Below are positions 17,035-22,664 of a stretch of 64,000 bases of DNA, piece after piece. This stretch comes from Prochlorococcus sp. MIT 1223. GTDB lineage: Bacteria > Cyanobacteriota > Cyanobacteriia > PCC-6307 > Cyanobiaceae. Made by a program: the position numbers and the translations under genes. The DNA lies in NCBI RefSeq assembly GCF_034092465.1, contig NZ_CP139303.1, positions 1,082,865 through 1,146,864 on the forward strand, in the 5' to 3' direction. The notes under the pieces were generated by a model, which was not told the origin of the DNA, made no database searches, and saw nothing but the letters and a program-made list of their open reading frames with translations. Position 1 is the first letter of the stretch. Each line of letters opens with the position of its first letter.

Positions 17035-20000
17035 TCAAGCTGCAATAGGCAAGCCAACTACCTGCGTATGGGCACCCCTTGCTTGAGTAACTCCAATAGT
17101 ACGAGTAGATGCACCAATCATTGGGCGGCGATGACTAACAACTAAGAATTGTGCCTCAGTGGATTGCTTAGCAATTAAAGCAGATAACCTTTCAACATTC
17201 ACTCCATCCAAAAAGCTATCCACCTCATCTAATGCATAAAAAGGTGAAGGACGAAAACGCTGTAAAGCGAATAGAAAACTTAATGCAGTTAAAGATTTTT
17301 CTCCTCCTGACATAGCGGCAAGTCGTCTTACCGATTTACCTTTGGGATGCGCAACCAAAGTCAGTCCTCCCTCTAAAGGATCTTCCATATTTTCAAGTTG
17401 AAGATGTCCATCTCCTTCAGAAAGATTTGCAAATATTTCTCTGAAATGAATATCAACTGCCTCGAAAGCTTCCATAAATGCTTCCTGACGAAGAGTTGCA
17501 ACAGTTTCAATCCGAAGCAATAGTTCTGTTCTTTCTTCAGATAAAACATCCAATCTTTGGCATAAATCCTCTAATCTTTTTTCTAGCTTGCCAAGCTCTT
17601 CAAGTGCCAACATATTTACTGGTTCAAGAGATTCCATACGGCGCTGTAAATTTTCCAAATCAGCTTGATGAGCAACTAATCCATTGGTTCTTATAACATC
17701 AGAAATTTCAGGTAACGGATCAGGCAATTTTTGTTTTAATTCTTGGAGACGAATATTTCCATTGCGAATCTCTTCTTCCAAAGAAATTCTTTCATCTCTA
17801 AGACGATCGAGATTCCATTGTGCCTCTTGCAAAACTTGTCGTTGTTTTGCAACATCGGCCTCCACTAGATCTCGTGTGCGCCGTTGTTCACCAAAATGTA
17901 TTTCAAGATCTTTTTGTTCATTTGAAAGCTGATTTCTTCTTCGATCAATATCAATATTTTGTTGTCGCCAAGTCTTATGAGAGCTAGAAAGTTTTTCTAC
18001 TGATTCTTTTAACCTATTTTCCTCAATTAATAGACTATTCATCTGATCTTGTAGACGTTCTAAAGAAAACTGATGCTGCCTAGATTCATTAACTAGGTTA
18101 TCTCTGTGTAACCTTGCCTTATCTAATGCAGAGTCTGCTGACTCAAGGTCTATTTGTAATTGCTTTAAGTTTTCACCATCAACATCTTTATCTAAAAACT
18201 CTTCGTTTTTTTCTATCTTTTCTATTGCAGATAACAATGGTTCAATCTCTTTAATGACTAAAGCTAGATCATTCTTATAAATATCTTTTGAAGAGTGAAA
18301 CTCTTGAAGCCTATTTTTACGTAAATTTTGTCTTTCTAAAAGAGGTTCATTAGAAGTTTGACTAGAAGTTCTCTCAGTTTCTAATGCAACTTGACGTTCG
18401 TTCAACTTGACTAAATCAGTTCGTAATTCTGACAGTAGTTTATTGAGTCGAGCCTCTTCTAAAAAGCATTTTGCAAGAGTTTCTCCAAGTAGAAGTAATC
18501 TTTCACGCATTGGTTCCAATTCATCTCTTTCTTTGCTAATTCCAAAAGATAATCCACTGCTTTTAGCTGCAAAACTTCCGCCTGTCATCGCGCCATTCTT
18601 TTCAAGTAACTCGCCTTCCAAAGTCACAGTCCTTTTTCTTCCTAGCTGAATACGTGCAGAATTTAGATCTCGATAAACTAGTGTTTCTCCAAAAACATAA
18701 TTAAACACATTCTCATAAATAGATTCAAATTTAATCAAATCAACTGCTCGCCCAATGAAAGGCTCATCAAGAGAAATAGAAGATGTGAAAGTATTTCTTT
18801 GTATTGCTTTATTAATTCCTAAAGGTCCTTGATTGATTTTATTAAGTGGTAAAAATGTCAATCTTCCTGCTTTTCGTAACTTTAATAATTCAATGGCTTT
18901 TGCAGCAATTTGATCATTATCAACAACAATTTGACCCAGTCTGGCTCCTGCTGCTACTTCAAGAGCTTGGCGATAGCAGTCATCAACTTCGCCCAATTGA
19001 GCAACTGGTCCATGAATTCCATCTAGTCCGGCTTCTAAAAGAAGCCGTAAAGCACCAGTACCTCTGCTTTCCTGCAATGTTTCTCTACGACTTTCTATAC
19101 GAGCAATGTCTCTTTCTAATTTCGTTTGTTCTTGCTCCATTCTCTGACGAGTTCTTTCTTGAATAGAAACATCGTCTGACAAATCTTTTATACATTTTTT
19201 CTTTTCTGTAATTTCAGATATCAATGATTTCCATGCATTGTCTAAAGAAAGTAGTTTTTCATGAACTTTTTTATTATCGCTAATATCTCTTTGTTGAGCC
19301 TCTTCTAATTCTTCAAGTCTTGTATCTAATTGAAGTAATTTTTCCTCAATAGTTTGCTTTTTTTCTATGAGAGGTCGAAGAGAAGATTGAATCTCTTGTT
19401 TATAAGAACTTCTCTGACGCTGATTCTCCAACCAAGCGCCAGACCTTCCTGCAACCTCAGATAACCTTCTCCGTGAAGCATCAACAGCTGCCTCAGCATT
19501 TTGACAATCATTTTCTGCCTTTTGAATAAGGTCTGGATCTATAAATGTTTTACTACTTTCTTTTTTCTCTTCTATTTTATCTCGTCTAGATAATAAATCC
19601 TTTCTCTGTTCATGTAATTGCTCTCCTTCCTGTTTGTGGATCTGAGCTTGACGATCTAACTCTTTAGATTGGGTATCTAATCCAGCAATCTCTGCCTGAA
19701 TTGAAAGCAATTTATCTTCACCAAGGTCTTTTACTATCTGCTGCAAAGTTTTTAATTTTTCAACCGAAGAAGATAATTTTTCTTTTAGCTCTGTAATTTC
19801 ACATTCGTCTTTCTTAGCTTTTTCACCTAATTGTTCATGGCGAGATTGTAAACCAATTAAGCCTTTTTTAGCTTCTTCAAAAATTAACACTAATTCTTGC
19901 TTTTTCCCAATTTGAAATTTTTCCTTTAAATCCCTGTAGATACGAGCTTTCTCGCAATCTTTTTGTAAGCGTTGCTGACCAACCAGCAATTCTTGTTCAA

Positions 20001-20643
20001 CTATTCGACAACGTTCTTGTCGCTCATGAACATCATCAAGCTTGAAGCGTGTTTGCTCAATTCGACTATCAAATAAGGCAACTCCAGCTAACTCATCTAT
20101 TAATCCACGACGATCTTTATTACTCATTGAAACAATTCTAGTAACGTCTCCTTGCATAACTACATTGCTCCCTTCGGGGTCAACTCTGAGTCTTCTTAAT
20201 TGAGTTTGTAATTGCTGAAGATTACATATTTCACCATCTGAGTAATAGGTAGAGCTATAAGAACCTCCAGGCATAATTCTCAATTTACGCGTCACTGTCC
20301 AATCCTTTTGGTCAGATTTAATCCAAGGACCCTCTTGAGAAGGTTCTAATCCTTCCTCTGCACTATCAGGCTTCCAATCCGTTAGATCAAATCTCACGCT
20401 AACTACTGTTTCTGCTGATTTACCTGCTTTTAAGACACCACTATTGACTAAGTCTGGCAATCGATCAGCACGCATTCCTCTACTCGTAGCCAAGCCCAAA
20501 CAAAATAAAACACCATCTAGAATATTGCTTTTACCTGAGCCGTTTGGCCCAGTAACAACAGTAAAATCTTGCTCTAGAGGGATTTTCATAGTCCCTCCAA
20601 AGGACTTGAAATTCGAAAGTTCAACCTGATTGATGTAAACCAA
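17035..20643 (-). CDS. smc: Chromosome segregation ATPase SMC
   Basis: This 1202-residue protein has the complete SMC layout: the N-terminal head with Walker A GPNGSGKSN near residue 35, a coiled coil to about 520, a globular hinge at about 520-680 (GIHGPVAQLGEVDDCYRQALEVAAG), a second coiled coil, and the C-terminal head with signature MSGGEKSLTAL and Walker B ALDEVDSFLD. SMC dimers extrude DNA loops to compact and separate chromosomes. The length is normal for bacteria. It is the longest gene in the window. No scpA or scpB is adjacent. Confidence 0.97.
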   Translation of the reverse strand: MVYINQVELSNFKSFGGTMKIPLEQDFTVVTGPNGSGKSNILDGVLFCLGLATSRGMRADRLPDLVNSGVLKAGKSAETVVSVRFDLTDWKPDSAEEGLEPSQEGPWIKSDQKDWTVTRKLRIMPGGSYSSTYYSDGEICNLQQLQTQLRRLRVDPEGSNVVMQGDVTRIVSMSNKDRRGLIDELAGVALFDSRIEQTRFKLDDVHERQERCRIVEQELLVGQQRLQKDCEKARIYRDLKEKFQIGKKQELVLIFEEAKKGLIGLQSRHEQLGEKAKKDECEITELKEKLSSSVEKLKTLQQIVKDLGEDKLLSIQAEIAGLDTQSKELDRQAQIHKQEGEQLHEQRKDLLSRRDKIEEKKESSKTFIDPDLIQKAENDCQNAEAAVDASRRRLSEVAGRSGAWLENQRQRSSYKQEIQSSLRPLIEKKQTIEEKLLQLDTRLEELEEAQQRDISDNKKVHEKLLSLDNAWKSLISEITEKKKCIKDLSDDVSIQERTRQRMEQEQTKLERDIARIESRRETLQESRGTGALRLLLEAGLDGIHGPVAQLGEVDDCYRQALEVAAGARLGQIVVDNDQIAAKAIELLKLRKAGRLTFLPLNKINQGPLGINKAIQRNTFTSSISLDEPFIGRAVDLIKFESIYENVFNYVFGETLVYRDLNSARIQLGRKRTVTLEGELLEKNGAMTGGSFAAKSSGLSFGISKERDELEPMRERLLLLGETLAKCFLEEARLNKLLSELRTDLVKLNERQVALETERTSSQTSNEPLLERQNLRKNRLQEFHSSKDIYKNDLALVIKEIEPLLSAIEKIEKNEEFLDKDVDGENLKQLQIDLESADSALDKARLHRDNLVNESRQHQFSLERLQDQMNSLLIEENRLKESVEKLSSSHKTWRQQNIDIDRRRNQLSNEQKDLEIHFGEQRRTRDLVEADVAKQRQVLQEAQWNLDRLRDERISLEEEIRNGNIRLQELKQKLPDPLPEISDVIRTNGLVAHQADLENLQRRMESLEPVNMLALEELGKLEKRLEDLCQRLDVLSEERTELLLRIETVATLRQEAFMEAFEAVDIHFREIFANLSEGDGHLQLENMEDPLEGGLTLVAHPKGKSVRRLAAMSGGEKSLTALSFLFALQRFRPSPFYALDEVDSFLDGVNVERLSALIAKQSTEAQFLVVSHRRPMIGASTRTIGVTQARGAHTQVVGLPIAA

Positions 20644-20680: not shown

Positions 20681-21085
20681 TTACGAGAAGCTCAAGTTGA
20701 AATTATCAATTTTAGATTTTTGAGAAAAAATTTTACAGAAGCCCGATTTAATTACTATGTATCCACAGATTGTTTTGCTTTGCAATTGAACACTTAGCTC
20801 ATCTAACCGTTCAATTGGAAGCTGTCCAATAAAGACTCCAGACTCTATTCTGCTAGCCCAGCCTCTCCCTCCTGAAACTTGAGCTTCCTTCTTCTCTAAC
20901 CATTGAAGTTTATGCAAGGGAGAATGAATTGCTTCGACTTTTTTTCCATCTAAAACTGGTATTTCTAATAACTTCCAGGTTCTACAAGCATTTCTATCCT
21001 CTATAAGTAGATCAAAGTGTATTTTTTTTTGATCATCAGGGGCATTAATATGCTTTAACAGCACCCATCGATTTCCTGTAGACAT
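20681..21085 (-). CDS. Conserved hypothetical, possible LigD-type 3'-phosphoesterase-like domain
   Basis: The protein has 134 residues. The order of motifs is reminiscent of the LigD 3'-phosphoesterase fold: WVLLKH (residues 7-12), IHFDLLIED, a TWKL strand, then HSPLHKLQWLEKKEAQVSGGRG, where LigD proteins have a DHPLDYADFEG..PEGEYG segment. The first His pair and the Asp are in place, but the Arg after HxD is replaced by Leu, so activity on DNA 3' ends is doubtful. It lies between smc and a 69-residue gene on the same strand. I infer this similarity by eye; a plain conserved hypothetical is the safe label. Confidence 0.6.
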   Translation of the reverse strand: MSTGNRWVLLKHINAPDDQKKIHFDLLIEDRNACRTWKLLEIPVLDGKKVEAIHSPLHKLQWLEKKEAQVSGGRGWASRIESGVFIGQLPIERLDELSVQLQSKTICGYIVIKSGFCKIFSQKSKIDNFNLSFS

Positions 21086-21104: not shown

Positions 21105-21314
21105 TTAATTATTTATTTTTCTAGCTTTTTCTAATTCAACTGCTCTTAATGTAGCCCAATTTGCAATGGCCGTTTTTTGCTCATTTATTTTTACTAACTC
21201 AAGTGCTATTTCCTTTAAAAGATGAATATCTCTACAACTCTGGATAGTTCGAGATAATCTCTCAGTATGGAATTTAAGCTGAAGAGTTGGTTCTATTGAA
21301 TCTTGAATAGTCAC
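21105..21314 (-). CDS. Small helical hypothetical protein
   Basis: A 69-residue, probably fully helical soluble protein (LQLKFHTERLSRTIQSCRDIHLLKEIALELVKINEQKTAIANWATLRAVE). It resembles small conserved proteins I associate with cyanobacteria, but I cannot attach a function or family name. It lies 19 bases upstream of the phosphoesterase-like gene on the same strand and may form a small operon with it and possibly smc. Confidence 0.6.
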   Translation of the reverse strand: MTIQDSIEPTLQLKFHTERLSRTIQSCRDIHLLKEIALELVKINEQKTAIANWATLRAVELEKARKINN

Positions 21315-21466
21315 ATGAGCTAAATTTGTTTGATCTTGAAAATTGAGAAAACAAATAATGAATAATATACCTTTATTGGATTATCCAATAAAAGGATAAA
21401 AAGTTTCTTTCAGAATCATTGAATGAAAGAGAAAACACTCTTTCAAAGTTTCTTAAGAAAAATTGT

Positions 21467-21828: not shown

Positions 21829-22278
21829 ATGGAATCAGTGAATTCTAATTCCCACGATCAAAGTCAGATGGATCCTCCTCCTGAAAAAGAGGAGCAATGG
21901 TTCAATGATCATTTTGAAAGCGTACTTCCTCAAATTCAAGAACGATGGCCGGATATGGCAAAACAAACTTTAGAAGCCACACGTGGCAGCTTGGATGAAT
22001 TGGTGCGTGTCATTTCTCTTCACTCAGGTAAAACAAGTTATGGGGTCAAAGAACAACTTGAAGAACTGTTCAACACAGCAAGTAATCGAACAAAAAACCT
22101 AGCTGAAAATTTAGAGCCTCTTGAAAAACAATTGGAAGATTTATTAGATGAATTAAATAGTTCACTGCGCCCAAGAATAGAAAAACCTGTCCGCCAAAGA
22201 CCCTTACTTTCTATTGGAATTGCAACTACTGTTGGTGTTCTACTTGGACTACTTCTGGCTGGAGGGAGGAAATCCTAA
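21829..22278 (+). CDS. YqjD/ElaB-like (DUF883-type) membrane-anchored protein
   Basis: The 149-residue protein has an acidic N-terminal soluble region, amphipathic helices at residues 45-115 (QTLEATRGSLDELVRVISLHS, LEPLEKQLEDLLDELNSSL) and a single C-terminal helix after RQRPLLSIGIATTVGVLLGLLLAGGRKS. This is the plan of the YqjD/ElaB family, tail-anchored proteins that associate with ribosomes in E. coli. Its stop overlaps the start of the next gene by one base, giving the yqjD-yqjE order known elsewhere. Family membership is inferred from layout rather than strong identity. Confidence 0.65.
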   Translation: MESVNSNSHDQSQMDPPPEKEEQWFNDHFESVLPQIQERWPDMAKQTLEATRGSLDELVRVISLHSGKTSYGVKEQLEELFNTASNRTKNLAENLEPLEKQLEDLLDELNSSLRPRIEKPVRQRPLLSIGIATTVGVLLGLLLAGGRKS

Positions 22279-22664
22279 TGACTGAATATAAAAGCAAAAA
22301 AAACTTTGGTGCAGCAGCAAGAGTCACAGCACTAGCTAATTCAATCATGGATTTACATGTGAGAATTGCTCTGCAAGAAATGGATAGAGAGAAGCGACGT
22401 CTCATTAGTGGTGGAGTTTTCTTGGCTTTAGGAGGAATATTAATGCTATTTACATTACTTTTTCTTCATCTATTACTGGGAATATTAATGGTATCAAAAT
22501 TACAATTCTCAATAGAATTAACTATTTTATTAATTGCTTTTATGGATGTAACTTTAGCTGGTATAAGTTTAAGGGTAGGAGGTTATTTAGCCAGAGGTCC
22601 ATACTTGCCAGAAACTTTAGAGGGTATTAGCAAGACGACAAAAGCCGTACTCGGAAAAAATTAA
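22278..22664 (+). CDS. YqjE-like (phage holin family 3_6) membrane protein
   Basis: The 128-residue protein has an N-terminal amphipathic helix (ARVTALANSIMDLHVRIALQEMDREKRRL) and two hydrophobic helices (LISGGVFLALGGILMLFTLLFLHLLL and SIELTILLIAFMDVTLAGISL). This is the arrangement of the YqjE/DUF1469 family, which is called holin-like by structure only. It is coupled to the DUF883-like gene through TAATG. Probably a stress or envelope protein; there is no evidence for a lytic role. Confidence 0.7.
   Translation: MTEYKSKKNFGAAARVTALANSIMDLHVRIALQEMDREKRRLISGGVFLALGGILMLFTLLFLHLLLGILMVSKLQFSIELTILLIAFMDVTLAGISLRVGGYLARGPYLPETLEGISKTTKAVLGKN

Follow-up and report, generated by a model that had tools for sequence, protein, structure and literature searches.

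The window, the whole stretch of 64,000 nucleotides from Prochlorococcus sp. MIT 1223 analysed here, contains directly upstream of smc a gene for a stand-alone protein of 134 residues that is a variant of the LigD 3'-phosphoesterase (PE) superfamily and not a canonical PE. The protein is homologous to LigD PE, is predicted to share its fold and keeps its metal-ligand residues; its gene adjoins smc, and Ku was not found in the 36 listed genomes of its family. Most likely, the gene product is a metal-dependent 3'-end phosphoesterase that is co-expressed with SMC, as a candidate activity. The kinship had been proposed in an original prediction based on the order of short motifs, an observation that was confirmed in part and whose interpretation as a relative of LigD PE is supported.

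Table 1. Features of the PE-like gene and its surroundings in the window (residue numbers with the prefix of the three-letter code refer to P. aeruginosa LigD).
Feature	Position	Strand	Basis
Stand-alone LigD-PE-like gene, 134 aa, ATG start	20681..21085, stop included	minus	ORF list, conserved family, predicted fold
H12 codon, counterpart of Mn ligand His42	21050..21052	minus	His in 69/69 rows
H23-F24-D25 codons, counterparts of Mn ligands His48 and Asp50	21011..21019	minus	His and Asp each in 69/69 rows
L27 codon, at the place of phosphate-contacting Arg52	21005..21007	minus	alignment
H58 codon, counterpart of His84	20912..20914	minus	His in 69/69 rows
W62 codon, at the place of Tyr88	20900..20902	minus	alignment
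R74 codon, SGGRG loop, candidate replacement of Arg52	20864..20866	minus	alignment
smc, the adjacent downstream gene, same strand, starting 37 bp past the PE-like stop	17035..20643	minus	Pfam SMC_N and SMC_hinge
69-aa ORF directly upstream of the PE-like gene	21105-21314	minus	ORF list
DUF883-like gene and holin-like gene (Phage_holin_3_6) near the smc locus	21829-22664	plus	Pfam

Kinship to the LigD phosphoesterase

Searched alone, the window protein scored 15.8 bits against PF13298 (E 0.015), below the gathering score of 31.1 bits, and gave no match in NCBIfam. Its top match among PDB sequences was the GAF domain of cone PDE6 (E 0.0048), which ranked above the PEs. This weakness of the lone sequence speaks for a chance resemblance, in which the order of motifs would have arisen by coincidence in a short ORF or in a protein of other descent. 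Profile A1 comprises 34 rows, namely 33 cyanobacterial sequences and the planctomycete sequence L004. Against 177,635 PDB sequences, its ranks 1-5 were all LigD PEs (3p43, 3n9b, 2lj6, 3p4h and 5dmp; E 0.0012-0.097), and the first non-PE was a CDGSH protein at E 0.29. PF13298 was the sole Pfam family matched at E <= 1, in 21 of the 34 A1 members; none of the matches across 292 sampled cyanobacterial genomes reached its gathering score. An hhalign comparison of A1 with six reference PEs from plasmid entries, of which five bear the annotation DNA ligase D and one that of a DNA polymerase ligase N-terminal domain protein, yielded E 3.1e-5 and a probability of 73. In this comparison, H12 is aligned with the His that forms the first metal ligand in reference LigD, and a 5-residue insertion follows H12. 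The cone PDE6 GAF domain, OPG035 and CDGSH proteins seen among the PDB sequence matches were rejected as chance, being gone or ranked below the PEs in the profile search and lacking from the 50 structure matches listed.

Phylum-wide searches were started from cyanobacterial and planctomycete genomes, and profile A1 found matches in 82 of 246 genomes of the Planctomycetes, the phylum of L004. The best-scoring 30 of the 82 were fetched as planctomycete rows, among them L064, a second label for the gene that A1 contains as L004. Ten of these 30 were scanned with PF13298 and seven passed its cut-off; one such relative over the cut-off, L070, matches an annotated DNA ligase D by tblastn (6e-10). 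This planctomycete bridge and the fold described below tie the window protein to LigD stepwise, by sequence as well as by structure, and shared descent with LigD PE is detectable in the sequence comparisons. In a tree of 121 columns and 69 rows with many weak forks, all cyanobacterial sequences cluster together (99/100) and those of reference LigD branch among the planctomycete rows, a placement at which the tool warns of long branches meeting. Four planctomycete sequences (L081, L086, L091 and L093) carry the PE-like domain within open frames of 555-616 aa in which Pfam shows no ligase or polymerase domain; these may be nothing more than the extended frames that GC-rich DNA produces.

The AlphaFold model of the window protein, built from four sequences, reached pLDDT 81.7 and pTM 0.77, the other four versions 71.9, 58.9, 47.2 and 40.5. 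With this model, Foldseek returned PE chains at ranks 1-7 (E 2.3e-5 to 1.4e-3), with VioE next at E 0.061. VIA-align gave Z 9.9-14.2 against PEs and 3.8 for the best non-PE chain, the top value being that for 3p43 (rmsd 2.1 over 111 residues). The model of the orthologue L002 is a partial replicate, since the four input sequences were identical; pLDDT was 77.4-81.4 across its five versions, and its Z scores were 10.1-14.4 against PEs and 5.0 for the best non-PE. The window protein is thus modelled with the PE beta-barrel fold, and the remote kinship suggested beforehand holds up in the profile ranks, in the gap between model Z scores of 10-14 for PEs and at most 5 for unrelated folds, and in the planctomycete bridge.

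Selection was assessed in three groups of close relatives. The median pairwise dN/dS was 0.29 in group 1 (36 pairs, range 0.15-0.58), 0.21 in group 2 (6 pairs) and 0.18 in group 3 (3 pairs), ratios by which the PE-like gene is under purifying selection. Sixteen positions, H12, H23, D25, L27, E29, C34, W37, P43, H58, W62, L63, S71, R74, G75, G83 and C117, are unchanged in all 33 cyanobacterial rows, a set that includes the window and from which L006, truncated by a contig end, was left out for all residue counts. Judged from such comparative data, the 134-aa ORF is a real conserved gene and no chance ORF. The profile search, the predicted fold, the bridge sequences and residue conservation point the same way, and a chance ORF or motif was rejected on the PE-led profile search, the VIA Z gap, dN/dS and residue conservation; it would be an extraordinary coincidence.

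Active-site residues and predicted activity

Residues were counted in a 69-row alignment that combines 33 cyanobacterial and 30 planctomycete sequences with six reference LigD sequences. The motifs on which the original prediction was based, LKH (H12), HFD (H23, D25), TWKL, HSPLHKLQW (H58, W62) and GGRG (R74), are all present in the ORF, and the candidate His and Asp residues H12, H23, D25 and H58 are conserved in every row, those of reference LigD included. Thus, the metal ligands His42, His48 and Asp50 are all retained. Of the phosphate ligands Arg52, His84 and Tyr88, only His84 is kept, so that two of the six canonical catalytic residues are replaced. The place of Arg52 holds Leu in 33/33 cyanobacterial rows, as had been read from the HxD motif, and Arg in 6/6 reference rows; at Tyr88, Trp is found in 33/33 cyanobacterial rows, and Tyr in 30/30 planctomycete and 6/6 reference rows. 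A looser text-pattern check returned 'P' in three and 'Y' in one cyanobacterial sequence and 'F' in one planctomycete sequence; all five come from other parts of these proteins.

The planctomycete rows have Met (20), Leu (8) or Phe (2) at Arg52, and the column of R74 holds Arg in 63/63 rows without Arg52; in the six rows with Arg52, it holds Gln (three), Glu (two) or Asn (one). This exchange across rows suggests that R74 may have taken over phosphate binding, although the pairing of R74 with reference LigD is less certain than that of other columns because a 3-column gap follows directly after it. The uniform planctomycete result at the Arg52 and R74 columns (30/30) is biased towards the residues of profile A1, by which these rows were picked, because Leu27 and Arg74 are already part of this profile; canonical planctomycete LigD lay outside the sampling.

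According to PMC4797286, the three metal ligands together with Arg52, His84 and Tyr88 are strictly conserved in the species and PEs aligned there, and point mutants of Tyr88 are reported as inactive in a review (PMC8656161). The protein could be a non-catalytic derivative that no longer cleaves but still binds metal and the 3' end of DNA or RNA, as an end-binding accessory, perhaps of SMC. The absence of Arg52 and Tyr88 throughout the cyanobacterial rows, the inactive Tyr88 mutants and the missing N-terminal arm (see below) would fit such a role. However, the metal ligands and His84 are kept in 69/69 rows, and a dead enzyme would need none of them. Moreover, the loss of Arg52 is common to all 30 planctomycete relatives (best of 82), which retain Tyr88, and is accompanied by another Arg in all 63 rows. 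We regard a non-catalytic derivative as unlikely.

The N-terminal arm of the reference LigD rows is absent from the window protein. In P. aeruginosa LigD, this arm holds residues needed for the 3'-phosphatase step (PMC8656161), and other PEs are also described without the arm in PMC4797286. With the arm and its 3'-phosphatase residues missing, the predicted activity is more likely to be the release of a terminal nucleotide than that of a phosphate.

Distribution, smc neighbourhood and Ku context

The PE-like gene was found in 31 of 292 cyanobacterial genomes, all from the window's own family, by a protein search and with the same count by the 34-row profile. The window's own genome gave a single match, as did each of the two other searched genomes of its genus; two named carriers are Prochlorococcus records with 43-46% identity. 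Among the 36 listed family genomes, which are those at the top of listings apparently ordered by kinship, 31 carry the gene; 241 further genomes, all lacking a match, fall outside the listed part. Its occurrence in Prochlorococcus, which had been thought unusual, is thus the rule within this family. No relatives turned up when viral contigs were scanned with the window protein and L004, and a viral structure library gave no matches at E <= 0.001; more divergent viral carriers may exist.

In 34/34 cyanobacterial loci examined (L006 included, the G109 gene L048 left out), smc starts 37-84 bp past the PE-like gene on the same strand. The gene had been described as lying downstream of smc; because smc shares the minus strand, it lies upstream, at a distance of 37 bp. 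In five of the 36 family genomes, smc is present but the PE-like gene is absent, and gene order therefore falls short of showing joint function. In these five, the DUF883-like gene adjoins smc, and a filter-off profile search for PE-like remnants at their smc loci gave a best E of 2.7; the same search gave a match with E 0.096 in L099, a non-smc locus. A single gain beside smc fits this clean pattern of presence and absence, and loss in the five genomes also fits; the tree gives no direction.

The 69-aa ORF had no match in a Pfam scan and has relatives in six of the 34 cyanobacterial loci, the window counted (tblastn), and a PRC-barrel gene comes after smc in the window. Relatives of the DUF883-like and holin-like genes were detected in 31/34 and 28/34 loci, respectively, with short flanks, and in all five family genomes that lack the PE-like gene. 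An inverted repeat (21366-21398; 16-nt arms, 88% complementary, 1-nt gap) lies between the 69-aa ORF and the divergent DUF883-like gene, and part of it is scored as a minus-strand terminator-like hairpin. A promoter scan returned two plus-strand sites, fewer than in shuffles, and these were set aside.

Ku was found in 0/36 listed family genomes, with B. subtilis recovered as the control, and an NHEJ module was rejected on this ground. ATP-dependent ligase domains are present in 22 of the 31 genomes with the PE-like gene and in four of the five without it. An obligate ligase partner was rejected, because no such domain was found in nine of the 31 carriers, the window's genome among them, while 4/5 non-carriers have one; an optional partnership may exist, given the ligase in the other 22. 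The mention of LigB-type ligases in Prochlorococcus marinus in PMC10140301 agrees with the latter count. As a separate observation, 10 of 11 genomes of one genus (G163, G165, G171, G211, G219, G221, G245, G251, G261 and G263) contain two to three ATP-dependent ligase domain matches each, in most cases with one frame of ~550 aa and one of ~445 aa, and none was found in the window's genome.

The lack of Ku matches in the 36 genomes would also suit an active metal phosphoesterase with another substrate, for instance a small phosphodiester or the 3' ends of RNA, unrelated to DNA repair. The altered phosphate side hints at a changed task, as do C34 and C117, which are invariant in the cyanobacterial branch and occur in 3/30 and 0/30 planctomycete rows, respectively. 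Positive evidence for another substrate was not obtained, however, and the constant place beside smc in all loci examined argues against it; this reading appears quite improbable.

The explanation that we favour, with somewhat more confidence than doubt, is that of a 3'-end enzyme of the LigD PE fold. A divalent metal would be held in the beta-barrel by H12, H23 and D25, and a blocking group or the terminal nucleotide would be removed from nucleic-acid 3' ends. The phosphate side would be remodelled by the change of Arg52 and Tyr88 to Leu and Trp, with H58 retained and R74 possibly holding the phosphate. The gene is probably co-transcribed with smc, and its product may have a role in replication- or segregation-linked DNA-end upkeep and not in Ku-dependent end joining. 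This explanation has to contend with the replacement of two of the six residues reported as strictly conserved (PMC4797286) and the reported inactivity of Tyr88 mutants (PMC8656161), with the lack of any PF13298 pass in 292 genomes, with the missing arm, and with a four-sequence model whose versions span pLDDT 40.5-81.7. A bolder version, in which a Ku-independent PE branch has moved its catalytic Arg to the SGGRG loop and provides an SMC-coupled 3'-end repair or trimming enzyme in marine picocyanobacteria, is put forward as a tentative possibility. If active, the protein would represent a second job for the PE fold with a naturally rearranged active site, in a branch present in 31/36 listed genomes of one family that is Ku-less as searched, and located beside smc in every locus examined.

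Comparison with known phosphoesterase systems

Among the open-licence papers listed in literature searches, none was about this gene as judged by title and abstract start, an absence that is weak evidence. One of the closest known counterparts is the PE of P. aeruginosa LigD (PF13298; PDB ID: 3n9b), with which the window protein is predicted to share the beta-barrel and has counterparts of His42, His48, Asp50 and His84 in the same order. In contrast to it, the 134-aa ORF is without a ligase or polymerase part, has Leu for Arg52 and Trp for Tyr88, contains five additional residues between the first two ligands and lacks the N-terminal arm. It also falls under the Pfam cut-off and, unlike LigD PE systems, belongs to a family in whose 36 listed genomes Ku was not found.

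The archaeal PEs 3p43, 3p4h and 5dmp are separate PE proteins like that of the window and are among its best structural matches (Z 14.2, 13.9 and 12.2). Two of them are described as more compact in PMC8656161. Unlike the window protein, the archaeal PEs aligned in PMC4797286 retain all six residues, and according to that paper the Methanocella PE shares an operon with a polymerase and a ligase of NHEJ.

The window's smc had no match in the 30 planctomycete loci, whose flanks extend no further than ~1.5 kb on either side. The planctomycete LigD_N-like proteins (best 30 of 82) resemble the window protein in the exchange of Arg52 for Met, Leu or Phe and in the Arg at the place of R74, both in 30/30, whereas they retain Tyr88 in 30/30 where the window protein has Trp.
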